From Euzebya rosea (GTDB lineage: Bacteria; Actinomycetota; Nitriliruptoria; Euzebyales; Euzebyaceae), in assembly GCF_003073135.1 (NCBI RefSeq), contig NZ_PGDQ01000006.1:62001-126000 (forward strand): a DNA stretch of 64,000 bases, in the 5' to 3' direction. Made by a program: the position numbers and the translations under genes. This document shows, piece after piece, positions 27,165 through 53,154 of the stretch. Under the pieces are notes generated by a model that was not told where the DNA came from, did not search any database, and saw only the letters and a list, made by a program, of their open reading frames with translations. Each line of letters starts with the position of its first letter. Within the stretch, counting starts at the first letter, position 1.

Positions 27165-27197
27165 GCCGACACCCGGACCGATGCGGGTCGGGCGTGC

Positions 27198-28178: not shown

Positions 28179-28221
28179 GGGCACAGTCGATACCCGAGGC
28201 CGCCGCACGACGAACCGCAGG

Positions 28222-29676: not shown

Positions 29677-29769
29677 CTCGGCTCCTTGATCGCGACCAGC
29701 GCCGCGGGTGGTGTTCACGCCCTGTCGACGCCTGTGTTCGACACCTGCGCCCGGATTTCCTGCTTCAGG

Positions 29770-29781
29770 CAACAAACTCGG
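29770..29781 (+). promoter_or_regulatory. CAACA-type motif (CAACAAACTCGG)
   Basis: Located 94 nt upstream of the minus-strand ThuA start, in a gap that also contains the terminator of the preceding dehydrogenase pair. Confidence 0.38.
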
Positions 29782-29802
29782 GAGGGTCGGGCGGAGAACC
29801 CA

Positions 29803-29836
29803 CCGGGGCCGCACGGTTCGCACCGTGTGGCCCCGG
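29803..29836. terminator. Terminator of the dehydrogenase pair
   Basis: A 14-bp stem with one G-T pair (arms 29803-29816 and 29823-29836, loop TTCGCA) lies 20 nt after the minus-strand stop at 29857. Confidence 0.6.
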
Positions 29837-29856
29837 GGCCCGTGATGGGCGGGTCG

Positions 29857-31611
29857 TCAGATCACGCGGCGGCGTCGATGGACGCCGAGCCAGCCGAGCA
29901 CCACCAGCACCAGCGTGACCAGGCCAACGGTCGGCAGGGCAGCCGCCACCCCGCCGTCGACGCCGGCGACCAACGTGACCGCGGTACGGTCCAGCAGCTC
30001 GACGTCGCCGCCGTAGTCGGCGACGTCGGGGGCGCAGCCGGCGCACTGGAGACGGGTCAGGCGACCGGACGTGGAGTTCCAGCTGCCGTTGGCCTCGACC
30101 ACGTAGACCGCGCCGTCGGGGCCGGTCGCCATGTCGATCGGGTTGCTGAGGCCCGGCAGCACGAAGGGGATGCCGTTGGCCGTGGCGTTCAACGACGCCG
30201 GGTTGGTGTCCAGCGACCCGTCGTCGGCGATGGGCATGTGCCACACCGCGCCACGGCTGTACTCCATCCACAGGAAATGGTCGTCGTAGGCCTCGGGCAG
30301 GCGCAGTGCCCCGTCGTCGGGCCGGTGGTAGGCCACACCGCCGAGGGCCGTGTTGCCGCCGCCACCCATCTGCACGTACGGGCTGGTCGGAGAGGGCACG
30401 TAGGTGTACCAGACCGCCGCAGGGGTCATGCCGGCGCAGCTGAACGGCTCGCCGGCGGTGCCCGTGGCGAAGTCGTACTCGTTGTAGGGGATGTTGTCGC
30501 CGATGCAGTACGGCCAGCCGTGGTTGGTGCCACCGCCCGGCGGGACGACCTCGACCTCGTCGTGGGCCGCGGGCCCGCGGGCCGGGTCGGGGTTTCGGGC
30601 GTCGGGGCCGACGTTGCCCGCGTACACGTGGTCGGTCTCGGGGCTGTAGCCGAAGCGGTACAGCGACCGGAAGCCGTAGGCGTACACGTACGGGTCGGCC
30701 CCCGCGTCCTGCACGAAGGGGTTGGGTTCGATGCCGGGACGGTCGCCGGGGACGCCGTCGCCCAGCGGGCCGTCGAGGCCGGACTCGAGCTCCTCGATGT
30801 CGATGCGCAGGACCTTGCCGCGGCGGTCGGCCAGGTTCTGGCTGGTCAGCGCAGCGGAGTTGAACGTCCAGTCCGCCCGCTGGTCATGGGGGGAGTACCC
30901 GCTGGAGTGGTCCGACGTCGTGTCGTCGCCCGTGGACAGCAGCAGGGTCCCGTCGTTGCGCCACTCCATGTCCCCGCCGTAGTGGCAGCAGTAGAACCAC
31001 TCGGCAGGGTTCTCGAACAGCTCGAGCTCGGAGTCGAGGTCGATGATGTTGGTCTCGAGGTCCATCGTGAAGCGGGACAGCCGCCACACGCCCTCGTCGT
31101 TGCCGGAGGAGGGGCAGCCGTTGCCGGCGGAGGCGTCGCAGTGCGGCCGGGCGTCGGGCATCTTCGGCGGCCAGATGTCCTGGCCGAGGGAGTTGGCGAC
31201 GGTGTAGTAGAGGTACAGCTCGCCGGAGGTCATGAAGTCGGGGGCCAGCAGGATCCCGTGGATGCCGCCCTCGGCCAGGTTGAACCCGGCCGGGCACTCC
31301 TCGCCGCGGGGGCAGTTGGCGACGTCGAACTGGCCACCCTGGCGGTCGTAGGCGTCGACGGGCAGGAACGCCGCGCGGGTCACGGTGCCGTCCTGCTCCC
31401 AGACGGTCACCTGCCCCTCGCGGCTCGTCACGATCACCCGTCCGTCGGGGGCGACCTCCAGTGCGGTCGGCGAGATCAGCTCGCCGTACAGCACCTCCTG
31501 GTCGACCGTCGGGTCGGGCAGCAGGGACTGGGCGCCGGCAGCGGTGCCCAGCGGGAGGATCATCGCCATCGCGGCGACGACCACGAACAGCCTGGTCAGG
31601 GTGGTGGTCAC
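29857..31611 (-). CDS. Secreted GSDH-like quinoprotein, second of a tandem pair
   Basis: A 584-residue exported propeller with signal (about 1-28, ending GAQS), GGIHGILLAPDFMTSGELYL, STGDDTTSDHSSGYSPHDQR, DRRGKVLRIDIEELESGLDG, DEVEVVPPGGGTNHGWPYC and GPDGAVYVVEANGSWN, and a C-terminal membrane helix followed by RRRR. It is very similar to the protein encoded just upstream. The start is a GTG whose GTGA overlaps the upstream stop by 4 bases, so translation is coupled. Cysteines (CDASAGNGCPSS, FYCCHYGG) are conserved in both copies and suggest disulphides. Sugar oxidation with PQQ is inferred from the family. Confidence 0.85.
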   Translation of the reverse strand: MTTTLTRLFVVVAAMAMILPLGTAAGAQSLLPDPTVDQEVLYGELISPTALEVAPDGRVIVTSREGQVTVWEQDGTVTRAAFLPVDAYDRQGGQFDVANCPRGEECPAGFNLAEGGIHGILLAPDFMTSGELYLYYTVANSLGQDIWPPKMPDARPHCDASAGNGCPSSGNDEGVWRLSRFTMDLETNIIDLDSELELFENPAEWFYCCHYGGDMEWRNDGTLLLSTGDDTTSDHSSGYSPHDQRADWTFNSAALTSQNLADRRGKVLRIDIEELESGLDGPLGDGVPGDRPGIEPNPFVQDAGADPYVYAYGFRSLYRFGYSPETDHVYAGNVGPDARNPDPARGPAAHDEVEVVPPGGGTNHGWPYCIGDNIPYNEYDFATGTAGEPFSCAGMTPAAVWYTYVPSPTSPYVQMGGGGNTALGGVAYHRPDDGALRLPEAYDDHFLWMEYSRGAVWHMPIADDGSLDTNPASLNATANGIPFVLPGLSNPIDMATGPDGAVYVVEANGSWNSTSGRLTRLQCAGCAPDVADYGGDVELLDRTAVTLVAGVDGGVAAALPTVGLVTLVLVVLGWLGVHRRRRVI

Positions 31612-33353
31612 AGGACTTCTGCCCGTCGACGCCAGGCGACCAGCGCCAGCGTGGTGGCCAGCAGGACGAGCAGGGCCGCACCGGGCAACCGGTCGACGAT
31701 CCCGCCGTCCACGCTGGCGACCAGCGTCTCGGCGGTGCGGTCGAGGACCTGCACGTCGCCGCCGTAGTCAGCCGCGTCAGGCGTGCAGCCGGCGCAGGTG
31801 ATGCGGGTCAGCCGGCCGGCGGTGGAGTTCCAGAAGCCGTTGCCCTCGACCACGTAGACGGCGCCGTCGGGGCCGACGGTCGCGTCGATCGGGTTGCTGA
31901 GGGTGTTGACGAGGGGGATGCCGCCCATGGCGACCGGCAGCAACGAGGTGGGTGAACCGTCGAGCGACCCGTCCGCCTTGATCGGGGACCGCCACATCTG
32001 GCCGCGGCCGTGCTCCATCCACAGCAGCTGGTTGTCATAGGTCTCGGGCAGCCGCAGCGCGCCGGTCTCGGGCCGGAAGTAGGCCGTGCCACCCATCGCG
32101 GTGTTGGAGCCCTGTCCCATCTGCACGAACGGGCTCGTGTTGCTCGGCGCGTAGGTGTAGTAGATCGTCGCCGGGGTCATGCCGGCACAGCTGAACGGTT
32201 CGCCGGCCGTGCCGGTGGCGAAGTCGTAGCGGTTGTACGGCAGGTTGTTGGCGATGCAGTACGGCCAGCCGTGGTTGGTGCCACCGCCGGGCGGGACGAC
32301 CTCGATCTCGTCGTGGGCGGCGGGACCGCGGGTCGGGTTGGGGTTGCGGGCGTCGGGCCCGACCGTGCCGACGTAGAGGTGGTCGGTGGTGGGGTTGTAG
32401 GCGAACCGGTAGTTGGAGCGGAATCCCAGCGCGTAGACGTACGGGTCGGCGTCGGGGTCGTCGGCGAAGGGGTTGGGGGCGATGCCGGGACGGTCGCCGG
32501 GGACGCCGTCACCGAGCGGGCCGTCGAGGCCGGACTCGAGCTCCTCGACGTCGATGCGCAGGACCTTGCCACGGCGGTCGGCCAGGTTCTGGCTGGTCAG
32601 CGCGGCGGAGTTGAACGTCCAGTCCGCCCGCTGGTCGTGGGGGGAGTACCCGCCGGAATGGTCCGACGTGGTGTCGTCACCCGTCGTCATCAGCAGCGTG
32701 CCGTCGTTCTTCCACTCCAGGTCACCGCCGTAGTGGCAGCAGTAGAACCACTCCGCGGGATTCTCGAACAGCTCGAGCTCGGAGTCGAGGTCGATGATGT
32801 TGGTGTCGAGGTCCATCGTGAAGCGCGACAGGCGGAACTTGCCCTCGTCGTTGCCGGAGGAGGGGCAGCCGTTGCCGGCGGAGGCGTCGCAGTGCGGCCG
32901 GGCGTTCGGCATCTTCGGCGGCCAGATGTCCTCGCCGAGGGAGTCGACCGGCGTGTAGTAGAGGTACAGCTCGCCGGAGGTCATGAAGTCGGGGGCCAGC
33001 AGGATCCCGTGGATGCCGCCCTCGGCTAGGTTGTAGCCGGCCGGGCATTCCTTCCCCCGCGGGCAGGCCGATTCGTCGAACTGGCCGCCCTGGCGGTCGT
33101 AGGCGTCGACGGGCAGGAAGGCCGCTCGGGTGGTGGTGCCGTCCTGCTCCCAGACGGTGATCTGCCCCTCGCGGCTGACGACGACGGCCCGCCCGTCGGG
33201 GGCGACCTCGAGCGCGGTGGGGGTGATCAGCTGGTTGAACAGGACCTCCCGTTCGACAGCGGGGTCCACGCCCAGCTGCTGGGCGTGGGACACCCCCGTC
33301 AGCGGCAGGACCATCGCGATCGCGACGAGCGCGACGAACGCGGCTCTTCTCAT
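31608..33353 (-). CDS. Secreted GSDH-like quinoprotein, first of a tandem pair
   Basis: This 581-residue exported protein has a signal about 1-25 (ending SHAQQ) and shares nearly every motif with the next gene: GGIHGILLAPDFMTSGELYL, CCHYGGDLEW, TGDDTTSDHSGGYSPHDQR, RRGKVLRIDVEELESGLDG, DEIEVVPPGGGTNHGWPYC. It ends with a membrane helix and RRRAEVL. Long runs of identical bases between the two genes indicate a recent duplication or gene conversion. The start ATG 33353 opens an operon whose control region carries a CAACA-type motif at 33459. Confidence 0.85.
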   Translation of the reverse strand: MRRAAFVALVAIAMVLPLTGVSHAQQLGVDPAVEREVLFNQLITPTALEVAPDGRAVVVSREGQITVWEQDGTTTRAAFLPVDAYDRQGGQFDESACPRGKECPAGYNLAEGGIHGILLAPDFMTSGELYLYYTPVDSLGEDIWPPKMPNARPHCDASAGNGCPSSGNDEGKFRLSRFTMDLDTNIIDLDSELELFENPAEWFYCCHYGGDLEWKNDGTLLMTTGDDTTSDHSGGYSPHDQRADWTFNSAALTSQNLADRRGKVLRIDVEELESGLDGPLGDGVPGDRPGIAPNPFADDPDADPYVYALGFRSNYRFAYNPTTDHLYVGTVGPDARNPNPTRGPAAHDEIEVVPPGGGTNHGWPYCIANNLPYNRYDFATGTAGEPFSCAGMTPATIYYTYAPSNTSPFVQMGQGSNTAMGGTAYFRPETGALRLPETYDNQLLWMEHGRGQMWRSPIKADGSLDGSPTSLLPVAMGGIPLVNTLSNPIDATVGPDGAVYVVEGNGFWNSTAGRLTRITCAGCTPDAADYGGDVQVLDRTAETLVASVDGGIVDRLPGAALLVLLATTLALVAWRRRAEVL

Positions 33354-36019: not shown

Positions 36020-37423
36020 TCAGGCCGGCAACCCGCCGGCCCGCAGGATCAGCTGCTTGACGTCGGTGAGGCGCCACTCGTCCCGGGCGAGGGAGGGGTC
36101 GGTGCAGATCAGCACGGGACCGTGCCGTGGGTCGTCGGGCAAGCGACCGTGCGTGCCCGACACGGGTGACGGGTCAAGCGGGACGACCTGCATCCTGTAG
36201 CGCAGGCCGGCCTTCTTGCGAGCCAGCGCCACGCCGGCCTTGACCTTGGCAGCCCGGTCCTCGGGGTCGAAGAACAGCTCGGCGGGGTCGTAGCCGGGCT
36301 TGCGGTGGATCTCCACCATCTTCGCGAAGTCCGGCGCCCGGTCGTCGTCGGTCCAGTAGTAGTAGGTGAACCACGCGTCGGCCTCGGCGATGACGACCAG
36401 GTCTCCGGCACGGTCGTGGTCCAGGCCCATCTCGCGCTTGCCGTCGGCATCCAGGACCCGCTCGACGCCGTCCAGGCCCTCGAGCAAGGTGCGGACCGCG
36501 TCGACGTCGGCGGGGTCGTCGAGGTAGACGTGGGCGATCTGGTGGTCGGCCACGGCGAAGGCACGGGAGACCCACGGGTCGAGGTACTCCATGCCGTCCT
36601 GCGTGTAGACCTCCAGCAGCCCCTCCTCCCGGAGTGCGCGGTTGATGTCGACGGGACGGCTGGCCGGGGTGATGCCGTACTCGCTGACGACGAGCACCGT
36701 CGCGCCGCGCGCCATCGCCCCCTCCGCCAGGTCGCCGGCCACCTCGTCGATGGCCAGCGCCGCCGCGGTCGCCTGGGGGCTGTCGGGTCCGAAGCGTTGC
36801 AGGTCGTAGTCAAGGTGCGGCAGGTACACCAGCGTCAGGTCGGGCTGCTTGGTGTCGAACACGTGGGCCGCGGCCCTGGCGATCCAGCGTGAGGACGTGA
36901 TCGCGGCGGTCGGTCCCCAGTAGGTGAACAGCGGGAAGGTCCCCAGCTTGTCGGTCAGCTCGTCGCGGAGGGCCGGTGGCCTGGTGTAGCAGTCCGCCTC
37001 CTTCTTCCCGTCGGCGTAGTAGATCGGGCGAGGGGTGACGGTCCAGTCCGTCGCCGCACCCATCGCGTACCACCAGCAGACGTTGGCGACGGTGTAGTCG
37101 GGGTCGACGGCACGGGCGGCGTCCCACACCTTCTCGCCCTGGACGAGCTTGTTGTGCTGCCGCCAGAGGAACACCTCGCCGAGGTCGCGGAAGTACCAGC
37201 CGTTGCCGACGATGCCGTGGTCGGTGGGCTCCAGCCCGGTCAGCATGGACGCCTGGGCGGTGCAGGTCACGGCCGGCAGGACGGCATCCATCGGGGCGGT
37301 GAACCCGGTGGAGGCGAGGGCACGCAGCCGCGGCATCTCCTCCAACAACGCCGGGGTCAGCCCCACGACGTTGATCACGACGACGGGACGACGGGCGGGG
37401 TCTTCGGTGGTGTGGGCGGTCAC
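36020..37423 (-). CDS. eboF: Alkaline-phosphatase-superfamily protein, EboF-like
   Basis: A 467-residue protein of the nucleotide pyrophosphatase/phosphodiesterase group. The catalytic Thr region is VLPAVTCTAQASMLTG (about residue 50), followed by GIVGNGWYFR, YLPHLDYDLQRFGPD and VSEYGITPA with metal-binding Asp/His/Glu positions. The usual first Asp ligand is replaced in VVINVVGL. It is the terminal gene of the ebo-like operon, where EboF proteins of this type occur. The start GTG 37423 follows AAGGA; the frame is open upstream but lacks family features. Substrate unknown; hydrolysis of a phosphorylated precursor is inferred. Confidence 0.8.
   Translation of the reverse strand: MTAHTTEDPARRPVVVINVVGLTPALLEEMPRLRALASTGFTAPMDAVLPAVTCTAQASMLTGLEPTDHGIVGNGWYFRDLGEVFLWRQHNKLVQGEKVWDAARAVDPDYTVANVCWWYAMGAATDWTVTPRPIYYADGKKEADCYTRPPALRDELTDKLGTFPLFTYWGPTAAITSSRWIARAAAHVFDTKQPDLTLVYLPHLDYDLQRFGPDSPQATAAALAIDEVAGDLAEGAMARGATVLVVSEYGITPASRPVDINRALREEGLLEVYTQDGMEYLDPWVSRAFAVADHQIAHVYLDDPADVDAVRTLLEGLDGVERVLDADGKREMGLDHDRAGDLVVIAEADAWFTYYYWTDDDRAPDFAKMVEIHRKPGYDPAELFFDPEDRAAKVKAGVALARKKAGLRYRMQVVPLDPSPVSGTHGRLPDDPRHGPVLICTDPSLARDEWRLTDVKQLILRAGGLPA
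36023..36041. terminator. Stem-loop at the end of the ebo-like operon
   Basis: GGCCGGC pairs with GCCGGCC around AACCC, starting right at the stop of the last gene. It could end the operon, but it lies inside the coding end. Confidence 0.3.
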
Positions 37424-37500
37424 TGGCAGCGTCCTTGTCGGGGTGTTGCGACGGGCGGACCGTTGTCCGACACGCGTCGGGTGAGGGGTGGGCTGGCGGG

Positions 37501-38670
37501 TCAGGGCAGCTCGGTCAGGCCAAGGGTGGTCAGGTGGTCGGCGGCCCACGCGAGCTCGGCGGCGATACCGGTGACGAGCCCGTCGACCGGGTCGTCGGCG
37601 TCGGCGGGACGTCGGCCCTCGGGCAGCACGCCCCAGGTGTAGGTCTCGAGCTCCAGGTGGGTGGTGACGGCGGTGGGGCCGCCGACCAGCGCGGCCAGGG
37701 AGGCCTCCAGCTCGGGGCGGGTCGTCCCCTCGTCGCTGTGGTGGAGGGGCAGGTGCACGTGGACCCGCCACTCCTGCTCGCCCGGCAGCCCACCGGCAAG
37801 CGCCTCGGGCAGGTCGTCCACCCCGTGCACGTCCGCGCCGGACCGTTCGCGGGTCTGGTGCAGGAACGGTGAGTCGGCGTGGCCGGCCAGCGCCGCGCGG
37901 ACCGCGGGGTCCGACGGGTCGACGGCGCGCAGGCCGGCCGACACCTGCGCCTTGTGGATCGGCACGCCGGCGGCGTCCAGCCCGGCGACAGCGGTCGGGC
38001 CGTCCTCGAACTGCACGGCCAGATGGCACAGGTCGACGCATGCCCCCAGGTGTGGGCCGGCGACGTCGCGGAGCACCTCGGCCAGCTGGGTCGTGGTCTC
38101 GACGCGACATCCGGGTTCGGGTTCGACGGCGAGGGCGATCCGACGGCCGGTGTCGTCCGCCAGCGCTGCCAGGTCCTCGGCGAGGCTCGCCAGGTTGTCC
38201 ACTGCGGCGGCGGTCCGATCGGCGTCGAAGCCGTCGCGCCAGCCGAGCGGCAGGGTCGAGATCGTCCCCACCGTCACGTCGTCGGGCAGCAGGCGGGTCA
38301 GCAGCCGGGCCAGCCGCAGCGTGTGCTCGCGCCGCGCCGGCTCGGTCCAGTCGGGCCGGTACACCCGACGCTTCACGACCTCGTCGTGGAAGCCGGCGTA
38401 GGGAAAGCCGTTGAGGGTGACGACCTCGCACCCTGTCGCCACGAGGTGCGACCGGAGGGCCTCCAGCCGGGCGGGATCGCGGTCCAGCGCCAGCGCGGCG
38501 TCGTCGGCGAGCCACAGGCCGATGCCGAGCCGGTCGCGCCCCAGCCGCTCACGGATGGGCTGCGCGTAGGTCGTCAGCTGCGCCAGGACCCCGTCGACGT
38601 CCTCGGCGGGATGCACGTTGGAGCAGTAGGCGAGGTGGACGGTCGAGCCGTCCGGATGGCGGAACCGCAC
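37501..38670 (-). CDS. eboE: EboE-like metabolite traffic protein (TIM barrel)
   Basis: This 389-residue protein begins with the EboE pattern LAYCSNVHPAEDVDGVL and has a TIM-barrel xylose-isomerase-like core: GIGLWLADDAALAL, VVTLNGFPYAGFHDEVVK, LAVEPEPGCRVETTTQL, GACVDLCHLAVQFED and HVHLPLHH. EboE is part of the ebo clusters that support export or assembly of secondary metabolites such as scytonemin. Its exact chemistry is not established. Start GTG 38670, 3 nt after the stop of the TatD-like gene, so tightly coupled. Confidence 0.83.
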   Translation of the reverse strand: MRFRHPDGSTVHLAYCSNVHPAEDVDGVLAQLTTYAQPIRERLGRDRLGIGLWLADDAALALDRDPARLEALRSHLVATGCEVVTLNGFPYAGFHDEVVKRRVYRPDWTEPARREHTLRLARLLTRLLPDDVTVGTISTLPLGWRDGFDADRTAAAVDNLASLAEDLAALADDTGRRIALAVEPEPGCRVETTTQLAEVLRDVAGPHLGACVDLCHLAVQFEDGPTAVAGLDAAGVPIHKAQVSAGLRAVDPSDPAVRAALAGHADSPFLHQTRERSGADVHGVDDLPEALAGGLPGEQEWRVHVHLPLHHSDEGTTRPELEASLAALVGGPTAVTTHLELETYTWGVLPEGRRPADADDPVDGLVTGIAAELAWAADHLTTLGLTELP

Positions 38671-38673
38671 GGG

Positions 38674-39531
38674 TCAGCTGCCCCCACGCTTGATGGAGGA
38701 GCCCTCGAACAGCGCATCGGGGTCGGCCGGTCCGCCGCCCAGCTCCAGCCGGCCGGACTGGCCGTACACCGCAACGGGGTTGTCCCACACGACGGTGTCG
38801 ACGTCGGCCTGCGCGAACCCGGCCGCCAGCATCGCGTCGGCGGTCTTCCGCACCTTCAGCGGGTCCGAACGGCCCCAGTCGGCGGCGGAGTTGACCAGCA
38901 TCCGCTCGGTGCCGTACTGCTGGAGGATGCTGACCATCCGGTGCTCGTCGACCTTGGTGTCGGGGTAGATGGAGAACGCCATCCACACACCCGTGTCGGC
39001 CAGCACCTCCACGGTCAGCTCGTTGTTGTGGTCGATGATCGTCATCTCGGGCGGGAAGCCCTGCTCGCGCAGCAGGTCGAGCGATCGCGTGGTGCCCGCC
39101 AGCTTGTCGCGGTGTGGCGTGTGGACCATCAGCGGCAGCTCGTGCTCGAGGGCCAGGGCGATCTGGGCGGCGAAGACCTCGTCCTCGGCGGGGGTCATCG
39201 AGTCGTAGCCGACCTCTCCCACGGCGACGACGCGGTCCTTGGCGAGGTAGCGGGGAAGCACCTCGAGCACGTCCTTGGCCAGGCCCGTGTCGTTGGCCTC
39301 CTTGGGGTTGAGCGCGATGGTGCAGTGGTGGGCGATGCCGAACTGGGCGGCGCGGAAGGGCTCCCAGCCGACCAGGGAGGCGAAGTAGTCCACGAAGCTC
39401 CCGACGTTGGTGCGGGGCTGTCCCAGCCAGAACGCCGGCTCGACCAGCGCGGTGACGCCGGCGTCGGCCATCGCCTCGTAGTCGTCGGTGGTCCGGGACG
39501 ACATGTGGATGTGGGGGTCGAAGATGCGCAT
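38674..39531 (-). CDS. eboB: TatD-family metal hydrolase, EboB-like
   Basis: A 285-residue metal-dependent hydrolase. The metal-binding FDPHIHM motif is at residues 4-10, then VVAVGEVGYDSM with a Glu ligand, LPLMVHTPHRDK, IIDHNNE and MLVNSAADWG with late ligands. These fit the amidohydrolase TIM barrel of TatD. Genes of this type sit between eboA and eboC in known ebo clusters. ATG 39531 is chosen because MRIFDPHIHMSS is the family N-terminus. It follows eboA by 63 nt and abuts eboE. Substrate unknown. Confidence 0.83.
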   Translation of the reverse strand: MRIFDPHIHMSSRTTDDYEAMADAGVTALVEPAFWLGQPRTNVGSFVDYFASLVGWEPFRAAQFGIAHHCTIALNPKEANDTGLAKDVLEVLPRYLAKDRVVAVGEVGYDSMTPAEDEVFAAQIALALEHELPLMVHTPHRDKLAGTTRSLDLLREQGFPPEMTIIDHNNELTVEVLADTGVWMAFSIYPDTKVDEHRMVSILQQYGTERMLVNSAADWGRSDPLKVRKTADAMLAAGFAQADVDTVVWDNPVAVYGQSGRLELGGGPADPDALFEGSSIKRGGS

Positions 39532-39594
39532 CGGTCGCGTCCGTTCGTCAGCTGTGGCGGGTACTGGAGGAGGGGGTGTCACCCGTTCGGCGGG

Positions 39595-40353
39595 TCATCC
39601 CCGCAGGGCGAGGGCACGGCGGGCCGCGTCGGCGCGGCGTGCCTCGTCGTGGTCGAGCTCGGCCGCGATGGCGGCCAGGCGGTCGCCCGGCGGGTGGGCG
39701 TCGATGACGGGCCACACCTGGGCGGGCACGTCGCGGCCGGCGGCGATCCGTTCGTGGACGAAGTCCGCCATCATGCGCGACAGCTCGGGGGTGACGCGGT
39801 CGGGCAGGCCGGGGATGCGGTCGATGTCGACGCCGACGAACACACACTTCAGCACGGCCTGTGCCAGCGCCTCGTCGTCCAGCAGGGCCACGCCAGCGGT
39901 GCCGAGGGCGGCAGCGACGAGACGGGTGTCGTTGGTCCGCATGGCGTCGTCGACCAGGTCACGCGCGACCGACCGCGTGGCGTCGTCCAGCCCGCCGGGA
40001 TCGGCGACGAGCAGGTCGAGGGCACGCAGCGCACCGCGCTTCTCGCGGGTGTCGCCGTGGCGGTACAGGTCGGGCAGCTCGGCGGGACGGTCGGCGGTCG
40101 GCAGGGCCCGGACCAGCACCGAGCGGGCGGCGTCGTCGACGGTCGGCTCGAACGGGTCGTCGGGGTCCGCCGTCGGATCGAGCGGGCCACGGCCGACCCT
40201 GCGGGAGACGGCAGGGAAGCGGGCGCGGATGCTCGACGGCGTGTCGGCGACGGCCACGCGGGCGTCGGCCAGCCACCCCACGGCGTCGGCGTCGAGCACC
40301 GCGGACAGCTGCGCGTCGAGGTCGTCGGTCCAGCGGTGGTCGTCGGTGGTCAC
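39595..40353 (-). CDS. eboA: EboA-like protein
   Basis: A 252-residue alpha-helical, soluble protein without catalytic motifs. It has the repeat-like layout of EboA: SIRARFPAVSRRVGRGPLD, LVRALPTADRPAELPDLYRHGDTREK, ALDLLVADPGGLDDA, DAMRTNDTRLVAAALG and a MMADFVHERIAAGRDVPAQV end. EboA is defined only by its cluster and has no known biochemical role. The GTG start overlaps the stop of the upstream isomerase gene as GTGA, so translation is coupled. The call rests on both sequence pattern and the surrounding TatD, UbiA, EboE and EboF genes. Confidence 0.78.
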   Translation of the reverse strand: MTTDDHRWTDDLDAQLSAVLDADAVGWLADARVAVADTPSSIRARFPAVSRRVGRGPLDPTADPDDPFEPTVDDAARSVLVRALPTADRPAELPDLYRHGDTREKRGALRALDLLVADPGGLDDATRSVARDLVDDAMRTNDTRLVAAALGTAGVALLDDEALAQAVLKCVFVGVDIDRIPGLPDRVTPELSRMMADFVHERIAAGRDVPAQVWPVIDAHPPGDRLAAIAAELDHDEARRADAARRALALRG

Positions 40354-41225
40354 GCGGAAACCCTCCCGGGGGTCTGGTCGGTCGTCGATGGGGCGGACGG
40401 CGTGGCTGCCCGCAGGAAGCGGATCGCCTCGGGGACCATCGTGTGGGCGGTGTGCCCGTGCCGGGTCAGCTCCACCGAGACGAGGCCGTCGTAGCCGATG
40501 TCCTGCAGCGCGGCCATGGCCGGCGGGAAGTCGATCTCGCCGTCACCGAAGGGCAGGTGCTCGTGCACGCCACGCACCATGTCCTCGACCTGCACGTGGA
40601 CCAGGTGGTCGGCGACCCGGTGGATGCAGTCGGCGATCGGGGCGTCCTCCAGGCACTGGCAGTGGCCGATGTCCAGCGTCATCGCCAGCGCGGGGTGATC
40701 CAGCTGGTCGGCCAGCCGTTCCCATGCCGCGATGGTGTCGACGACCATGCCGGGCTCGGGCTCGAGCCCGACAACGATGCCTGCGTCGTCCGCAGCGTCG
40801 AGGACGGGCACGAGGCCAGCGGCCAGGCGGTCCCAGGCGGCGTCGGCGTCATCGACCCGGTCCACTCCCGACCACAGGTGCAGCACGGGGGACCCCAGCC
40901 GCACGCTGATGTCCACGGCTCGGCGGTAGAAGTCGATCCGCCGGGCGGCCCCCTCGGGGGACACCAGCGTGGGTTCGTGCTTGTTGCGCGGGTCCAGCAC
41001 GAAGCGGCCGCCCGTCTCGACGACGACCGACAGGCCGTGGTCGGCCAGCAGCCGGCGGGTCTCGTCGATCCGCCGGTCGAGGCCGGGACCGAACGGGTCG
41101 AGGTGCTGGTGGTCGAGCGTCAGCGCGATGCCGTCGTAGCCCTCGTCGGCCAGGAACGTGCAGGCGTCGGCCAGCCGGTGGTCGCCCAGCCCGTTGCTGC
41201 CGTAGGCGAAGGACAGGCCGGTCAC
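40350..41225 (-). CDS. Sugar phosphate isomerase/epimerase (TIM barrel)
   Basis: This 291-residue AP-endonuclease-2-like TIM barrel has metal-ligand strands GLEPEPGMVV, MTLDIGHCQCLED, HVQVEDMVRG and GLVSVELTRHGH, with GYDGIALTLDHQHLDP at the N-terminal side. It belongs to the xylose isomerase/inosose family. Beside an inositol-phosphate-synthase-like gene, action on a cyclitol or keto-cyclitol is plausible. This is not one of the six classical ebo genes. The GTG start overlaps the UbiA-like stop (GTGA), the second of three consecutive overlaps in the operon. Confidence 0.83.
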   Translation of the reverse strand: MTGLSFAYGSNGLGDHRLADACTFLADEGYDGIALTLDHQHLDPFGPGLDRRIDETRRLLADHGLSVVVETGGRFVLDPRNKHEPTLVSPEGAARRIDFYRRAVDISVRLGSPVLHLWSGVDRVDDADAAWDRLAAGLVPVLDAADDAGIVVGLEPEPGMVVDTIAAWERLADQLDHPALAMTLDIGHCQCLEDAPIADCIHRVADHLVHVQVEDMVRGVHEHLPFGDGEIDFPPAMAALQDIGYDGLVSVELTRHGHTAHTMVPEAIRFLRAATPSAPSTTDQTPGRVSA

Positions 41226-42112
41226 GTCACCGCTCGCATACGGCGCAGGTGTCGGCCGATCGGCACGGCGCTGGCGGTGATCGCGGCGCGCAGCCACGAC
41301 CCGGTCGAGGCGAGCAGCCCCGACTGCAGCGGGATGACCCCCATCACGCCGGTCCCGACGGACTGGCGGACCGCGCCGGCGTCACCGTCGGCCTCGACCG
41401 CCGCCTTGTAGCCGCCCCCGACGATGGCCAGGTAGCTGGTGGCCGCCCCGGCGGTCGCGAGGCGGCGCAGGCGGGCGGCCCCCCGCCCCTCCTCCTCGCG
41501 AGCGGGAAGTCCCAGGGCGATCAGCCCGAGCGCCGTGGCGGCGGTCCGACGCAGGGCAGCGAGGGGCACGTCGACCGGCGCGCCGTGCACCTCGTGCTGG
41601 CTGACGGTCGTGACGGTGAGGGTGTGTGCGCCGACCAGCGCGGCCGCGGGCAGGGCTGCGGTCACGTTGCCACCCGCCGCGCCGAGCAGCACGTCCAGCG
41701 CCCGGCACAGCGCCATCGTGGCGGGGCCGGCCGGCGTGTCCTTCGCCAGCACGTCGTAGGCCCAGACCGACGCCGCCAGCGGGACGGCGATCCGCAGGCC
41801 CGCCCGGCCACCGATCGCCCCGGCCACGCCGACCCCGCCGGCGACCATGCCGGCCCCCACGGCCAGCGCTGCGGCGGGGGTGATCCGGCCCGAGGGGATC
41901 GGTCGTTCGGGTCGTTCCTCGGCGTCGAGCTCGCGGTCCGCCCAGTCGTTGAGCGCCATCCCGCCCAGGTAGACGAGGGCGGAGGCGGCCGGCATCGCCC
42001 AGCCGCGTCGGTTCCCCGCTGCGGCAGCGCCGTTCCAGGCGTCGCCGGGGATCGACAGGACGGCGGGCAGCCGGACGAGCTCGGCCAGGGTGTCGGCGGT
42101 CGGCAGGCTCAC
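41222..42112 (-). CDS. eboC: UbiA-like prenyltransferase, EboC-like
   Basis: A 296-residue membrane protein of about eight hydrophobic helices. The prenyl-diphosphate Asp motif NDWADRELDAEERP (about residue 57) is followed by RPIPSGRIT, as in UbiA-family enzymes. A second Asp-rich motif is less clear, as in EboC proteins. Expected role is attachment of a lipid or prenyl group to a cyclitol-like or aromatic acceptor, or making a lipid carrier; this is inference. Start GTG 42112 overlaps the stop of the inositol-phosphate-synthase-like gene by GTGA. Confidence 0.83.
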   Translation of the reverse strand: MSLPTADTLAELVRLPAVLSIPGDAWNGAAAAGNRRGWAMPAASALVYLGGMALNDWADRELDAEERPERPIPSGRITPAAALAVGAGMVAGGVGVAGAIGGRAGLRIAVPLAASVWAYDVLAKDTPAGPATMALCRALDVLLGAAGGNVTAALPAAALVGAHTLTVTTVSQHEVHGAPVDVPLAALRRTAATALGLIALGLPAREEEGRGAARLRRLATAGAATSYLAIVGGGYKAAVEADGDAGAVRQSVGTGVMGVIPLQSGLLASTGSWLRAAITASAVPIGRHLRRMRAVT

Positions 42113-43302
42113 GCGGCGGTCGTGCCCGTGGCGGCTGCGGTGGTCCGGGCCCAGGTGATCAGGTCGGTGAACTGCTCGGCCAGGCGGTGCTGGCTGCTGC
42201 CCACGGGGTCCTTGAAGAAGTACGCCAGGGCCGGGAGCGGGCCGGACTGCCCGGCGCCCATGGCCAGGGCCACCAGCCGGGCGAGGTCCAGCACGAGCGG
42301 GGCGGCCAGCGCCGAGTCGCAGCCCTGCCAGGTGAACTGTAGCTGCATGCGGGTCCCGAGGAACCCCTCGAAGGTGATCAGGTCCCAGGCGGTCTTCCAG
42401 TCGCCGAGGTCGGCGACGTGGTCGATGCGGACCGGGCCGTCGGGCTGGTAGCCGAGGATGGCCTGCAGCGGGGCGGCCTTGGACTCCAGCTTCGAGCGGG
42501 CGTGGGTCGGGTCGGCCAGGGTCTGCCCGTCGCCGCCGCCGAGCAGGTTCATGCCCGACCACGACCGGACCCGCAGCGCCCGGTCGGCGAACATCGGCGC
42601 GAGGGCGGTCTTGAGCAGCGTCTCGCCGGTCTTGCCGTCCCGGCCGGCCAGCGGCAGGCCGTGGCGCTCGGCGAGCTGCTGGATCGCCGGCAGGACCGTC
42701 GCGCTGGACGGGGTGAAGTCGACGAACGCGGCGCCCGACGTCAGCGCGGCGACCGCCACCAGGGGGGCGGGGGACAGCACGGCCAGGTCGGCGTCGAGGG
42801 CCGCGAGCAGCAGGTCGACGTCGCGGTGGCTGTCGTGCGGGTCGACCGGCGGCTCGGTGGACGCCACGTTGACCACGACGACACGGTCCAGGTCGTGGGC
42901 GGTCCGGAACGCCGTCAGGTCGGCCCGGAGCCGGGCCAGCGCTGCCGCGGGGTGCTCGGCGACGTCCCGGGCGGTGACCCCCGCGGTCAGCCGTGCATCG
43001 ACGGTCGCGAGCTCCTCGGCGATCCGGTCGACGACGCCGTGGGGCACGACGCCGGCGGTCTCGAGCTGCTCGGCGCGCTTGACCAGCGGGACCTCGCCGA
43101 TGTCGCAGCCACCGATGACCAGGTCGGGCAGCCCCGGCAGGCCGACACCGTCGAAGGCCGACAGCTGGGTGACCATGCCCTCGGGCCCAGCGAGGTTGGC
43201 CACCATCGCGGCCCAGCCGACGGTCATCGTCGTGGCGACCGATCCCCTGGCGCCCAGCAGCCAGAGGCCCCAACGGGGCGTTGGAGTGGAAGGTGCGTCC
43301 AT
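42109..43302 (-). CDS. Inositol-3-phosphate synthase-like protein
   Basis: A 397-residue protein with an N-terminal Rossmann segment WLLGARGSVATTMTVGWAAM, VVVNVASTEPP, VDFTPSSA, GRDGKTGETLLKTALAP and SWSGMNLLGGGDG, all typical of myo-inositol-1-phosphate synthases (glucose-6-phosphate cyclisation with NAD). This is the first gene of the ebo-like operon. Classical clusters have a 3-dehydroquinate-synthase-like EboD; here a cyclitol-forming enzyme of another family holds the place. ATG 43302 follows GAAAGG. Whether the product is inositol phosphate for normal lipids or a dedicated precursor cannot be told. Confidence 0.87.
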   Translation of the reverse strand: MDAPSTPTPRWGLWLLGARGSVATTMTVGWAAMVANLAGPEGMVTQLSAFDGVGLPGLPDLVIGGCDIGEVPLVKRAEQLETAGVVPHGVVDRIAEELATVDARLTAGVTARDVAEHPAAALARLRADLTAFRTAHDLDRVVVVNVASTEPPVDPHDSHRDVDLLLAALDADLAVLSPAPLVAVAALTSGAAFVDFTPSSATVLPAIQQLAERHGLPLAGRDGKTGETLLKTALAPMFADRALRVRSWSGMNLLGGGDGQTLADPTHARSKLESKAAPLQAILGYQPDGPVRIDHVADLGDWKTAWDLITFEGFLGTRMQLQFTWQGCDSALAAPLVLDLARLVALAMGAGQSGPLPALAYFFKDPVGSSQHRLAEQFTDLITWARTTAAATGTTAA

Positions 43303-43374: not shown

Positions 43375-43394
43375 CATCCGAATGTATGACCTCG

Positions 43395-43406
43395 CAACAA
43401 AAATGT
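43395..43406 (+). promoter_or_regulatory. CAACA-type motif (CAACAAAAATGT)
   Basis: A further member of the AT-rich motif family, 21 nt from the inverted repeat at 43351-43374 in the same divergent control region. Confidence 0.4.
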
Positions 43407-43513
43407 GGAGGGTTGGCAGGAACTCGGTCGGTGGCTGGCGAAAAGGGAGGGGTGACGGCCGTTCGTTCGGTCCGTCGAGCCCGCCGAACAGAGCCGACCC
43501 TGCCGGAGCCGAC

Positions 43514-44719
43514 ATGACGAGCCACCCCCGGACCATCCAGACCACCCGACTGCGCCTCGTCGCCGCGCTCGTCGCGGTGCTGCTGGCCAGCATCGCCCTT
43601 CCGGCCGCGGCCGAGGACCCCTCCACCCCGGAGGAGGAGGACGTCCCGCACATCCTGATGTACTCGGGCACCGGCGGGTTCCGGCACGGGTCGATCGAGC
43701 ACTCGGTCGAGGTCATCACGGCGCTGGCCGTCGAGACGGGCGCCTTCACGGTGTTCCACACCGAGGACGTCGTCGACTTCACCGCCGAGCGCCTGGCCGA
43801 GAGCGACATCGTGCTGTTCGCCAACACGACGGGCGAGACCCCGTTCACCGACGAGCAGAAGACGATGTTCGAGCAGTGGGTCCGTGACGGCGGTGGGTTC
43901 ATGGGCATCCACGCGGCCGCGGACACCAACTACGAGTGGGACTTCTACCAGACCATGGTCGGGGCGGCGTTCGACAGCCACCCGCACACGGGCAACACGG
44001 TGTTCGTCGCCCCGGTCGACGAGCTCGACGAGGCCACCGTGCAGGTGGAGAACGCCGACCACCCGATCAACGCCGACGTCGAGGGCGACTCCTTCCCGCT
44101 CCGCGAGGAGTACTACAAGTGGCAGGTCAACCCGCGTGGCACCCAGGACGTACGTGTCCTGCTGAGCCTCGACGAGACCGACACCTACGGCTTCGGGAAC
44201 CCGCCTTCCATGGGGCCGCTGAGCAGCAGCTACGACGACGACCAGCCGGTGGAGTGGGTCAAGACGGCCGACGGCCACGGCACCGGACGCGTCTGGTACT
44301 CCAACCTCGGCCACTACGACGAGACCTATGACCGCGCCGACTGGCAGGCCCGCTTCGTCAACGCCGTCGCCTGGGTGCACGAGGGCGTGCACTTCCCGCC
44401 GGGCCCCGACACCCCCGGTCCGACGACGCCGACGGTCGAGGAAGTCGTGACGGCCCCGCCCGGCAGCCTCGTCTTCGCCCCGAGCATCAACGTGATCCCC
44501 CAGGGACAGGGGCTGCTCCTGGCGAACCTCGACACCGTCCAGCACAACATCCAGTCCCGGAAGCAGGACGCGAACCGCAAGCCGTTGTTCCGCTCGGTGT
44601 TCGCGAACATCAACGGCGGCACGGCCAGCGTCGTGGGTGTCGCCGACCTCGAACCCGGTGACTACGAGTACTACTGCACCATCCACAGCGGCATGGTCGG
44701 GACCGTCACCATCGTCTGA
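43514..44719 (+). CDS. Secreted ThuA-like protein fused to a cupredoxin domain
   Basis: A 401-residue exported protein: signal about 1-33 (LVAALVAVLLASIALPAAAE), ThuA domain about 40-290 (ILMYSGTGGFRHGSIEHS, MGIHAAADTNYEW, WYSNLGHYDETYD), then a cupredoxin domain about 310-401. Type 1 copper ligands are visible: His in VQHNIQS (about 344) and Cys, His, Met in YYCTIHSGM (about 388-394). The fusion ties ThuA chemistry to an electron-carrier domain and matches the separate cupredoxin lipoprotein beside the first dehydrogenase. ATG 43514 has GGAG 5 nt upstream. Confidence 0.85.
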   Translation: MTSHPRTIQTTRLRLVAALVAVLLASIALPAAAEDPSTPEEEDVPHILMYSGTGGFRHGSIEHSVEVITALAVETGAFTVFHTEDVVDFTAERLAESDIVLFANTTGETPFTDEQKTMFEQWVRDGGGFMGIHAAADTNYEWDFYQTMVGAAFDSHPHTGNTVFVAPVDELDEATVQVENADHPINADVEGDSFPLREEYYKWQVNPRGTQDVRVLLSLDETDTYGFGNPPSMGPLSSSYDDDQPVEWVKTADGHGTGRVWYSNLGHYDETYDRADWQARFVNAVAWVHEGVHFPPGPDTPGPTTPTVEEVVTAPPGSLVFAPSINVIPQGQGLLLANLDTVQHNIQSRKQDANRKPLFRSVFANINGGTASVVGVADLEPGDYEYYCTIHSGMVGTVTIV

Positions 44720-45990: not shown

Positions 45991-48585
45991 TCAGGCAGAT
46001 TTGGGCGAGATCCGGTAGCGGATCCCGGCCGGCTCCTTCCGGCGGTAGTCGGTGGACCGTTCGGCGACCGGACGACCGGCCGCTGCGGCCATGGCACGCA
46101 GGTCCTCCGGGTCCTTGCGGACACCGTGGTCGGACCCGGCCATGCGCGAGATGGTCTCCTCCATCAACGTGCCGCCCAGGTCGTTGACCCCGGCGTTGAG
46201 CAGCTCGGTGGTCCGCTCGACGCCGAGCTTCACCCAGCTGAGCTGGATGTTGTCGATCTCGCCCTGCAGCACCAGCCGGGCGATCGCGTGGACCTTGAGG
46301 GTGTCCTCCCACGACGGGCCGGGTCGGGCGACGCCGGCCAGGTAGATCGGCGACTGGGCGTGCACGAACGGCAGCGGCACGAACTCGGTGAACCGAGCGG
46401 GGTTGCCGGCCTCGCGACTGTCGACCTGGAGCTGGCGAAGCAGGTGCAGGTGGCCGGCCCAGTGGTGGGGCTGGTCGACGTGGCCGAACATCATCGTCGA
46501 GGTCGACGGGATGCCCAGCGCATGGGCGTTGCGCATGACGTCGACCCAGGCGGCGGTCGGCAGCTTGCCCTTGGTCAGGACCCAGCGGACGTCGTCGTCG
46601 AGGATCTCCGCGGCCGTCCCGGGGATGGTGTCCAGGCCCGCGGCCTTCGCCCGGCCCAGGAACTCCCGGACGCTGATGCCCGCCCGGGTGGCGCCGGTCA
46701 CGACCTCCATGGGGGAGAACGCGTGGATGTGCATCTCGGGCACGCGGTCCTTGACGGCCCGCAGCAGGTGCTCGTAGTGGTCGGTCGGCAGGTCGGGATG
46801 GATGCCGCCCTGCATGCACACCTCGGTCGCGCCGAACGCCCAGGCCTCCTCCGCCCGGTCGGCGACCTCGTCGAGGGACAAGGTGTAGGCGTCGGGGTCG
46901 TCGCGTCGCTGGGCGAAGGCGCAGAACCGGCAGCCGACGTAGCAGACGTTGGTGAAGTTGATGTTGCGGTTGACGACGTAGGTGACGGTGTCGCCGACCC
47001 GGGCGCGGCGAACCTCGTCGGCGGCCTCGGTGACCGCCGTCAGGTCCGGGCCCTCGGCGCCGAACAGCACCAGCGCCTCCTCCTCGGTGGGCGGGGTCCC
47101 GTCGACCGCACGACGGAGGATGCCCACGACGTCACCGGTCAGGCGCTCGCGGACAGGGCGCCGCGCCAGCGACTCGGCGGCGATCAGGCTCGTGTCGCCG
47201 TAGACGTCGTCGGCGTCGGTGCGCAGCTCGCCCTCGCCCCGGCTCCAGCCGGTGACGCCCTCTCCTGCCTCGGCCGACGTCCAGCGGTCGTCGCCACCCT
47301 GCGCCTGGAGCATGTCGGGGGCCTGCCACGGCTGCGGCTGCGGCATCGTGTCGGGCCGGGCGAGGCCCTCGTCGGTGGCCAGCGCCTGGATCGGGCCGCG
47401 CATCTGCCCGGCCAGCCACGGGTCGGGCCGGCGAACCCACTCGGGGTAGGCGCACAGCCGCTCGGTCAGCACCTTCCCGGCGGCGGCGGTGCGGGCCGCC
47501 AGCTCGTCGAGGTGCGGCCAGGGGGCCTCGGGGTTGACGTGGTCGGGGGTGACCGGCGAGACGCCGCCCCAGTCGTCGATGCCGGCACCGACGATGGTCT
47601 CCACGTCGTCGGGGGACAGGTTCGGCGGGGCCTGCAGGTGCACCCGGGTGGGCAGGACCAGCCGGGCGGTGGCGACGGTGGCCAGCAGGTCGTCGCGGTC
47701 CGGCTCGGGGTGGCTGCGCATCGCGGTGTCCGGCTTGGCCCGGAAGTTCTGCACGATCACCTCCTGCAGGTGGCCGTACCGGCGGGCCGACGACGCCATC
47801 GCGAGCAGGGTGTCGGCCCGCTCCTCCGGGGTCTCGCCGATGCCGATCAGGATGCCCGAGGTGAACGGGACCGACTGCTTGCCCGCGTCCTCCAGGACCT
47901 GCAGTCGCACCGCCGGGACCTTGTCCGGGCAGTTGTGGTGCGGCATGCCCTTCTCGTGCAGCCGGTCGGAGGTGGACTCCATCATGATCCCCATCGAGCC
48001 CGACACGGGCTTGAGGGTCGCGAGGTCGGTCCACGACATCACCCCCGGGTTGAGGTGGGGGATCAGGCCCGTCTCCTCGATCACGTGGATCGCGGCGGCG
48101 CGGAGGTAGGCAAGCGTGGAGTCGTAGCCGCGTTCGTCCAGCCACTGGCGGGCGGCCGGGTAGCGGACCTCGGGCTGGTCGCCGAGGGTGAAGAGGGCTT
48201 CCTTGCAGCCGGCGGCGGCGCCTCGACGGGCGACCTCCACGACCTGCTCCAGCGACATGAACGCGGGGATGTCGCCCTTGGGCGGCCACGCGAACGTGCA
48301 GTACCCGCAGGTGTCACGGCACAGGTGGGTCAGCGGGACGAAGACCTTGCGGCTGTAGGTGATCCGGTCGCCGAACGCCTGGTCCCGGACACGGGCGGCC
48401 AACGACATCAGCCGCTGGAGGTCCTCGCCCCGGGCACGGATCAGGACCGCCGCCTCGTCGACGTTCAGCTGCTTGCCGGCGTCGGCGCGGGCAAGGGCAC
48501 GGCGCATCGCGTGGGCGTTCACGGGGTCGGACGTGACGTGCGTTGCGTCGGCGGTGGACAGGTGACCAGAGTCGGTCTGTGTCAT
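45991..48585 (-). CDS. fbiC: FO synthase FbiC (two radical SAM domains)
   Basis: This 864-residue enzyme makes 7,8-didemethyl-8-hydroxy-5-deazariboflavin (FO), the chromophore of F420, from tyrosine and a flavin precursor. The N-terminal CofG domain has its 4Fe-4S motif as CRDTCGYC (Cys 89, 93, 96) and the C-terminal CofH domain as CYVGCRFC (Cys 548, 552, 555). The fused form is typical of actinobacteria. ATG 48585 is 10 nt from a TATAGC box, suggesting a leaderless transcript. Together with cofD and cofE downstream it shows that the cell makes F420. Confidence 0.96.
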
Positions 48586-48595
48586 GGGCGACAAG

Positions 48596-48601
48596 GCTAT
48601 A
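48596..48601 (-). promoter_or_regulatory. -10 box (TATAGC) for leaderless fbiC
   Basis: On the minus strand TATAGC ends 10 nt before ATG 48585, the same spacing as TAGGCT at cofD. Confidence 0.45.
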
Positions 48602-48726
48602 GCCGACTGGTCCGGACGCCACGAGCGCCGGATACGAAACGATGACGAGCGCTCCGGAACACGGAGAGCATGACCTAGGGTGATCGCGATCGGTGACGGG
48701 GGGCGCCGGGACCCGCCAAATGAAAT

Positions 48727-48743
48727 GCAGCCCCAGGGGCTGC
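48727..48743. promoter_or_regulatory. 17-bp palindrome before the CWB2 propeller gene
   Basis: GCAGCCCC and GGGGCTGC meet at a central A, forming a near-perfect palindrome 23 nt before the GTG at 48767. It could be an operator or leader hairpin. Confidence 0.35.
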
Positions 48744-48766
48744 GCCAACGTGCCAGGAGGATCTTC

Positions 48767-51136: not shown

Positions 51137-51164
51137 GGCTCGTGCGTCGTGGCCCGGCCGCCAA

Positions 51165-51170
51165 TAGGCT
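51165..51170 (+). promoter_or_regulatory. -10 box (TAGGCT) for leaderless cofD
   Basis: TAGGCT ends 10 nt before ATG 51181, with no Shine-Dalgarno between. Confidence 0.45.
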
Positions 51171-51180
51171 GCCGGGCCAC

Positions 51181-52134: not shown

Positions 52135-52135
52135 T

Positions 52136-52163
52136 CGCCGGCCGGGTCACGACCCGACCGGCG
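52136..52163. terminator. Bidirectional terminator after cofD
   Basis: A stem of 6+6 bp with one C/A mismatch (arms 52136-52148 and 52151-52163) right after the cofD stop, between two convergent genes. Confidence 0.55.
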
Positions 52164-52186
52164 CGTCCGGGGCACGAGGGGTGCGA

Positions 52187-53122: not shown

Positions 53123-53140
53123 GGTCCCACTGTGCCCGAA

Positions 53141-53146: not shown

Positions 53147-53154
53147 GTCGCCAC

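Follow-up and report, generated by a model that had tools for sequence, protein, structure and literature searches.

What could an ebo cluster make when an inositol-phosphate-synthase-like protein stands in for EboD? The question is raised by seven co-directional genes at 43302-36020 on the minus strand of the window, by which we mean the whole 64,000-nt stretch of Euzebya rosea contig NZ_PGDQ01000006.1 (assembly GCF_003073135.1) analyzed here. An isoprenoid-cyclitol product was proposed for ebo clusters in 2016 (Yurchenko et al., PMC5133447) and a lipid carrier role in 2018 (PMC6282210). The lipid-linked cyclitol put forward in the initial annotation of this locus is thus not a new idea, and the arrangement proves to be common in Actinobacteriota, but the intact Ino1 supports it. 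We consider it somewhat better than an even bet that the operon represents the ebo cluster as it occurs in Actinobacteriota, with an intact archaeal-type Ino1 and a TIM-barrel epimerase in place of EboD, and that it makes a lipid cyclitol. The genomic part of this reading is solid; the chemistry is a proposal built on sequence comparison.

Coordinates and profile matches confirm all seven genes where they had been placed. The series begins with an Ino1-like sugar-phosphate cyclase (42109..43302; ATG start, 397 aa; PF07994 161 bits, PF01658 108 bits), a UbiA-superfamily prenyltransferase of the SCO3242 family that is the counterpart of EboC (41222..42112; GTG start; NF045897, SCO3242_trans), and Isom, a xylose-isomerase-like TIM-barrel epimerase/isomerase (40350..41225; GTG start; PF01261, AP_endonuc_2, 160 bits). 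It continues with EboA, an all-alpha, predicted helical-repeat adaptor (39595..40353; GTG start; NF035938, EboA_domain, 135 bits against a cut-off of 50), the TatD-type metal-dependent hydrolase EboB (38674..39531; ATG start; PF01026, TatD_DNase), the TIM-barrel protein EboE (37501..38670; GTG start; NF035939, TIM_EboE, 392 bits against a cut-off of 250), and an EboF-like type I phosphodiesterase/phosphohydrolase (36020..37423; GTG start; PF01663, Phosphodiest, 238 bits). The claimed run of three GTGA start/stop overlaps is present in the window sequence at the Ino1/UbiA, UbiA/Isom, and Isom/EboA junctions, and the remaining gaps measure 63 bp (EboA-TatD), 3 bp (TatD-EboE), and 77 bp (EboE-EboF). 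With overlaps or gaps of at most 77 bp throughout, all seven ebo-type genes are predicted to form one operon.

Profiles and alignments of EboA, TatD, EboE, and EboF bear out the identity of the cluster as ebo-type. Like eboABCDEF (PMC5133447; Nostoc punctiforme, PMC6282210; Pseudomonas EDB), it unites homologs of EboA, TatD/EboB, UbiA/EboC, EboE, and EboF in one operon, with a common isoprenoid-cyclitol logic as proposed. Unlike eboABCDEF, it lacks EboD, contains an Ino1-like protein and a second TIM barrel, follows the order Ino1-C-Isom-A-B-E-F, and has a UbiA of the SCO3242 family. Ino1 takes the place of EboD, as the initial annotation had it, in gene content but not in map position, and the epimerase accompanies Ino1.

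The rest of the genome was searched for components that might alter this picture. EboD, which belongs to the DHQS superfamily of cyclases, is absent from the whole Euzebya genome, whose single DHQS-family gene, on another contig, is AroB (TIGR01357, 344 bits against a cut-off of 305), ruling out an EboD hidden elsewhere. No second ebo cluster was found in the genome, and the EboE of the window is its sole copy. A canonical mycothiol-type INO1, the second ino1 that the initial annotation suggested looking for, lies on another contig; it scores 606.5 bits over the full TIGR03450 model, slightly under the cut-off of 638, while the Ino1-like protein of the operon reaches 34.8 bits against the same cut-off. 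The presence of this separate copy indicates that the operon gene is not the housekeeping ino1. Neither of the two findings named beforehand as speaking against an EboD replacement, an EboD gene near another ebo cluster or an ino1 that is the only one and needed for inositol lipids, was made.

The closest solved relative of the Ino1-like protein is Archaeoglobus fulgidus Ino1 (1u1i; E 2e-60, compared with 2.9e-9 for Mycobacterium tuberculosis Ino1, 1gr0). Both the NAD-binding and the catalytic domain of MIPS were found, with their catalytic residues, and the equivalents of D225, K227, T228, N255, D261, K274, K278, K306, D332, and K367 are all kept (10 of 10 checked). Since the tested active-site residues are also invariant in all 30 seven-gene Ino1s, a dead pseudo-enzyme is ruled out. 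The protein shares fold family, length, catalytic lysines, Asn255, and the tested aspartates with A. fulgidus Ino1 (1u1i, 3qvs/3qvt/3qvw/3qvx/3qw2); in contrast to that stand-alone inositol synthase, it is encoded beside a prenyltransferase and an epimerase and carries Gly, its residue 256, at the site of Asp259. This site is Gly in 30 of 30 seven-gene Ino1s and Asn in most others, which may reflect a different substrate. MIPS relatives can make other rings, as does the five-membered-cyclitol-phosphate synthase 6k96, so an inositol phosphate product is not certain. The actinobacterial Ino1s (n = 32), all of which come from ebo clusters or truncated pieces of them, fall into a single clade (SH-aLRT 98) near archaeal-type Ino1 and far from Euzebya's own INO1, ruling out an origin from the host's own gene.

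The neighborhood survey recommended in the initial annotation covered 396 Actinobacteriota genomes and recovered 19 EboE loci in 18 of them. The seven genes occur in identical order at 16 of these 19 loci, the window counted. The TIM barrel first described as extra is indeed present, but it is a regular member: each of the other 15 intact seven-gene clusters retrieved in the survey of the phylum has it. Streptomyces plasmids carry the whole operon in the same order, with each gene annotated in GenBank, and these and the other actinobacterial copies rule out a one-off arrangement peculiar to the Euzebya genome. The Streptomyces counterpart of the Ino1-like protein is 48-58% identical to it. EboD and Ino1 occur together within one ebo cluster at no locus examined. 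Beyond the phylum, an Ino1-epimerase-UbiA core is common to haloarchaea, Gemmatimonadota, and Planctomycetota, and in haloarchaea and planctomycetes it stands without EboA/EboE. The haloarchaeal TatD-Isom-UbiA-Isom / Ino1-EboF cluster (L012, L038, L039, L045, L047, and others) has Ino1, UbiA, Isom, TatD, and EboF side by side as in Euzebya, but it has a mostly divergent two-part layout and a different second TIM barrel. The same pairing of a myo-inositol phosphate synthase with a prenyltransferase appears in Streptomyces SCO3242/SCO3243 (PMC3610822). Among papers outside subscription journals, our literature search found only the EboD form described and nothing joining Ino1 with ebo; the Ino1 form is apparently widespread and undescribed.

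The UbiA had been called EboC, and only the superfamily assignment holds: it belongs to the SCO3242 family (317 bits against a cut-off of 260), a sister of the EboC family, whose model it matches at 119 bits with a cut-off of 250. The Azospirillum and haloarchaeal UbiAs likewise fall under the EboC cut-off. Residues N55, D56, D59, D63, Y119, and R137 are invariant in 64 relatives, with D120 and K124 almost so, and P16, D24, and G144 mostly track cyclase type, across domains. A single division by cyclase type fits the UbiA tree (AU p 0.47), and one switch is not rejected by EboE (p 0.32) or EboF (p 0.17), whereas the TatD tree rejects it (p 0.0002). One cyclase switch for the whole cluster is thus rejected by TatD but not by the other trees, making two or more switches likely. 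The contrast between the UbiA and TatD trees further suggests that cyclase, epimerase, and UbiA may travel as a module.

Among the remaining proteins, Isom retains E155, D185, H188, H221, H223, and E252 without exception in 21 relatives from four phyla. Its match to IolE, the model for inosose dehydratase, is weak, and the best hits of both Isom and EboE lie nearer to 3-epimerases than to dehydratases. The EboE model (pLDDT 89) has the fold of sugar 3-epimerases/xylose isomerase and also resembles the 3-dehydroshikimate dehydratase AsbF; a sequence search of the PDB with EboE gave no match. EboA scores 67 bits against the narrower EboA_family model, below its cut-off of 320. Its AlphaFold model (pLDDT 94) is all helix, and a structure search with this all-alpha solenoid returned only weak ARM/HEAT-like matches, none significant, so we term it merely adaptor-like. 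The closest solved protein to EboB is AF_1765 (3guw). Both EboB and the EboF-like protein can be aligned with their counterparts from EboD-type clusters; EboB has the motifs common to all ebo TatDs, and T53, D205, D293, H294, and H425, among others, are invariant in 52 EboF-like relatives.

Genes for secreted-type sugar-oxidizing proteins flank the operon. Divergent from it, and not part of it, is a gene for a ThuA and plastocyanin-like protein (43382..44719, plus strand; PF06283 171 bits, PF00127), and on the minus strand lie a ThuA gene (28222-29823; PF06283) and two GSDH genes (29857-31611 and 31608-33353; PF07995 each); all four products have signal-like N-termini. ThuA or GSDH genes occur at most 15 kb from 11 of 18 actinobacterial clusters, against an expected 0.46, and this association is a new observation. 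At two loci (L019 and L020) a GSDH-ThuA pair stands immediately upstream. Haloarchaeal Ino1 clusters are often near GSDH or ThuA genes as well, and in Planotetraspora (L113) ThuA/GSDH genes are inserted within the cluster. The redox genes found beside clusters comprise GSDH, cupredoxin, multicopper oxidase, and the ScyD/ScyE family.

The best reading of these data is that UbiA prenylates a cyclitol derived from glucose 6-phosphate. Using tightly bound NAD+, the Ino1-like protein would cyclize glucose 6-phosphate or a closely related sugar phosphate, giving a cyclitol of the inositol-phosphate type; the xylose-isomerase-type barrels Isom and EboE could epimerize or dehydrate its ring. Membrane-bound UbiA would then add a prenyl chain, its donor site being shown by residue conservation and its acceptor suggested by co-inheritance of the module. 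TatD and the EboF phosphohydrolase may remove phosphate or other groups, and EboA, which shares a single open frame with Isom in some genomes (L028 and L043), may scaffold the soluble enzymes. The resulting lipid cyclitol would serve an extracytoplasmic process, here probably tied to the secreted GSDH/ThuA proteins, a link that offers a first concrete candidate process of this kind beyond scytonemin producers. The initial annotation also had the product exported, but no exporter is encoded among the seven genes, and export can only be surmised. Two unrelated NAD-dependent sugar-phosphate cyclases in one slot provide independent evidence for a cyclitol building block, which supports the older guess that ebo clusters build a lipid-bound ring sugar. 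We know of no enzyme from any ebo cluster with established cyclitol-lipid synthesis. The Ino1 form suggests glucose 6-phosphate as a cheap, testable substrate for a soluble first enzyme in a routine type of assay.

Three other explanations deserve weighing. The cyclitol might instead be dehydrated to a polyhydroxybenzene by IolE/AsbF-like barrels and C-prenylated by UbiA, yielding a prenylated aromatic or quinone-like compound that acts as a membrane redox carrier for secreted GSDH/ThuA/cupredoxin. UbiA enzymes mostly act on aromatic rings, as does Ubi-297, the only assayed EboC relative, which farnesylated quinolines (best 8-hydroxyquinoline-2-carboxylic acid) and no cyclitol; the IolE score of Isom, the AsbF-like fold of EboE, and the adjoining redox genes point the same way. 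BE-40644, a published case of cyclitol prenylation cited in PMC5133447, also speaks in its favor. We nonetheless think this route unlikely, as the operon has no dedicated dehydrogenase for inosose, the barrels' best hits favor epimerases, and neighboring genes do not amount to a biochemical link.

It is quite improbable that the Ino1-like protein merely raises inositol 1-phosphate for a conventional inositol lipid or product, with the ebo genes separate and acting on another acceptor. Its catalytic residues match those of genuine MIPS, and the translational coupling of Ino1 and UbiA in the window need not imply a shared pathway; however, the genome has its own canonical INO1, clusters with Ino1 always lack EboD, the UbiA lineage tracks the cyclase, and a CDP-alcohol transferase was not found among the operon genes. 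Very doubtful, too, is that the cluster aids transport of a specific secreted secondary metabolite, as proposed for scytonemin, with the lipid as a non-covalent carrier. In Nostoc ebo mutants the monomer of scytonemin does not reach the periplasm (PMC6282210), Streptomyces copies of the operon adjoin NRPS or type II PKS genes, some lying within or beside antibiotic clusters, and the genes listed for the calcium-dependent antibiotic (CDA) cluster include SCO3242-3243 (PMC3610822). In Euzebya, by contrast, no polyketide or peptide synthase was recognized among the window proteins scanned, no transporter gene is a constant companion, and haloarchaea and planctomycetes keep the core without EboA/EboE.

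A broader speculation, to which we give little credence, is that the ebo product of either cyclase is a membrane cyclitol or cyclitol-derived-quinone redox cofactor for secreted beta-propeller oxidoreductases. If true, it would give a common basis to scytonemin maturation, the EDB phenotype, and sugar oxidation. Its clients would conceivably be GSDH/ThuA in Actinobacteria and haloarchaea and ScyE-type proteins in scytonemin producers.

The minus strand of the window carries seven ebo-type genes at 43302-36020, exactly the operon delimited by the initial annotation, and profile matches identify them in order as an Ino1-like protein (PF07994/PF01658; 42109-43302, 397 aa), a UbiA of the SCO3242 family, a xylose-isomerase-like TIM barrel (Isom), EboA, TatD, EboE, and an EboF-like type I phosphodiesterase. 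The three GTGA overlaps read previously are likewise exact in the sequence, and the other junctions are gaps of 63, 3, and 77 bp. The identity of the cluster as ebo-type is nearly certain. Relative to canonical ebo, it has counterparts of five of the six components; the sixth, the DHQ-synthase-like cyclase EboD, was tested for in the Euzebya rosea genome and is absent, so the cluster is not a canonical one.

The sole DHQ synthase (DHQS)-family gene in this genome (5.5 Mb) is AroB (TIGR01357, 344 bits; cutoff, 305), and EboE and EboA occur once each, so we find neither EboD nor a second ebo cluster in the 40-contig, 97.6% complete assembly. The genome has two MIPS genes, the window Ino1-like gene and a canonical mycothiol-type INO1 on another contig, C14, which scores 606 bits across the whole TIGR03450 model. 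The second ino1 that the initial annotation had proposed to look for is thus present, and neither of the two outcomes it named as refuting its view, an EboD by another ebo cluster or this ino1 being the only one, occurs in this assembly. In gene content, Ino1 very probably replaces EboD.

EboE matches were found in 18 of 396 Actinobacteriota genomes, at 19 loci, and the 18 loci besides the window were examined for gene content. Fifteen of these 18 contain the seven genes in identical order, and the suggested neighborhood survey thereby places the Ino1-type cluster at 16 of 19 EboE loci in Actinobacteriota. The three exceptions differ in kind. L014 lacks Ino1 and is a second copy in a genome (G128) that also holds the full cluster (L015); since Ino1 is present in only one of the two, L014 may borrow the product of the other. 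L017 (genome G381) is an EboD-type cluster nearest to Deinococcus, which may reflect transfer or mis-binning. L030 retains the window gene order with a broken EboE, and an Ino1-Isom pair lies on a different contig. None of the clusters examined, including the EboD types of Azospirillum, Aureibacter, Mycetohabitans, Ketogulonicigenium, Deinococcus, and Roseivivax, contains both cyclases. The cluster is accessory in the window's genus, because one further species has it (proteins 86 to 97% identical, same flanks) and two do not. Three Streptomyces plasmids carry the identical operon in GenBank annotation, with products named inositol-3-phosphate synthase, SCO3242 family prenyltransferase, sugar phosphate isomerase/epimerase, EboA domain, TatD, eboE, and phosphodiesterase/phosphatase. 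EboA and Isom share one frame at L028 and L043, and a fusion of actinobacterial EboA with a xylose-isomerase-like protein was already described in 2016 (PMC5133447).

The nearest solved structure to the window Ino1 is that of Archaeoglobus fulgidus (E = 2e-60), with the Mycobacterium tuberculosis enzyme far weaker (2.9e-9). All 30 Ino1s from seven-gene clusters keep the equivalents of D225, K227, T228, N255, D261, K274, K278, K306, D332, and K367 without exception. Window G256 (A. fulgidus position 259) is Gly in the same 30 and Asn in nearly all other sampled Ino1s, making it a possible substrate marker. UbiA retains N55, D56, D59, D63, Y119, and R137 in 64 of 64 relatives and D120/K124 in >90%; Isom retains its barrel acids and histidines, and in EboF one Thr and a group of Asp and His residues are conserved in 97% or more of 52 relatives. 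EboE is predicted to form a barrel of the sugar-epimerase type, and EboA a high-confidence all-helical solenoid, a model with no significant match in the PDB.

The ebo Ino1s of actinobacteria, 32 in all, fall into a single clade (SH-aLRT, 98) that is distant from host INO1. In the UbiA tree, a single split by cyclase type is almost cost-free (delta lnL, 0.45; P = 0.47), and P16, D24, and G144 of UbiA largely track cyclase type across bacteria and archaea; the EboE and EboF trees do not reject such a single switch either (P = 0.32 and 0.17). The TatD tree places the Ino1-type Gemmatimonadota beside Deinococcus-like EboD types and rejects a single Ino1 group (AU, P = 0.0002). These trees come from a quick method and include only seven EboD rows; read most simply, they suggest that the cyclase, the epimerase, and UbiA travel as a unit, as expected if UbiA uses the product of the cyclase. 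That UbiA acts on a cyclase-derived cyclitol is somewhat favored.

We scanned the Ino1 alignment against 84,980 species genomes and retained the best 80 matches, ranked against the Gemmatirosa sequence, which fall in Planctomycetota, haloarchaea, Gemmatimonadota, and Actinomycetes. Among these 80, actinomycete neighborhoods hold the seven genes; those of Gemmatimonadota hold EboE, TatD, EboF, UbiA, Ino1, and Isom and no EboA; and haloarchaeal ones have TatD-Isom-UbiA-Isom2 divergent from Ino1-EboF. About 10 planctomycete loci have Ino1-Isom-UbiA, in some cases joined by a second Isom, and many further planctomycete Ino1s stand alone. The compact form without EboA, EboE, and EboF is found at L058, L059, L068, L077, L080, L082, L088, L089, and L114, several with a second Isom. 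The shared core is Ino1, epimerase, and UbiA, because these are common to neighborhoods across the groups. This core may explain why eboD was noted in 2016 to be missing from two of three planctomycetes (PMC5133447).

An isoprenoid-cyclitol proposal for ebo dates from 2016 (PMC5133447), and a lipid-carrier proposal with an export phenotype in Nostoc dates from 2018 (PMC6282210). SCO3242/SCO3243 appear alongside the CDA cluster. We found no description of the Ino1 form in the literature searched. The export suggested initially, or a carrier role, is rather unlikely for this cluster.

The operon is flanked at 15688-33353 and 43382-44719 by three ThuA, three GSDH, cupredoxin, and 3-keto-disaccharide hydrolase genes, most of whose products have signal-like N termini by eye. 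Together with FtsX-type permease and ABC ATPase genes, this set resembles a locus for sugar oxidation outside the cytoplasm, and it is kept in the second cluster-bearing member of the genus (L128). ThuA or GSDH lies within 15 kb of 11 of 18 actinobacterial clusters (17 genomes), versus 0.46 expected given how many such genes each genome has and how large it is, and a million simulations never produced 11 or more; the association spans four of seven families, although the genomes are not independent, several being from one family. In six clusters of one family, a same-strand GSDH-ThuA-3-keto-hydrolase block immediately precedes Ino1, and in Planotetraspora thailandica (L113, 14319-20050), ThuA and GSDH sit inside the ebo operon, between TatD and EboE. 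Nine of 12 haloarchaeal clusters have GSDH, ThuA, or multicopper oxidase nearby, a raw count without a background rate, and neither ThuA nor GSDH was found in the stretches examined around the small sample of seven EboD-type loci. In one Streptomyces copy, the gene immediately upstream belongs to the ScyD/ScyE family; in the scytonemin cluster, ScyE is required for the pigment and is predicted to be a periplasmic protein of the beta-propeller clan (PMC4870267). A link between the cluster and secreted sugar oxidation is conceivable, though less likely than not. Separately, F420 cofactor genes lie at 45991-54099, encoding a two-domain CofG/CofH-like radical SAM protein, CofD, CofE, and a luciferase-like monooxygenase.
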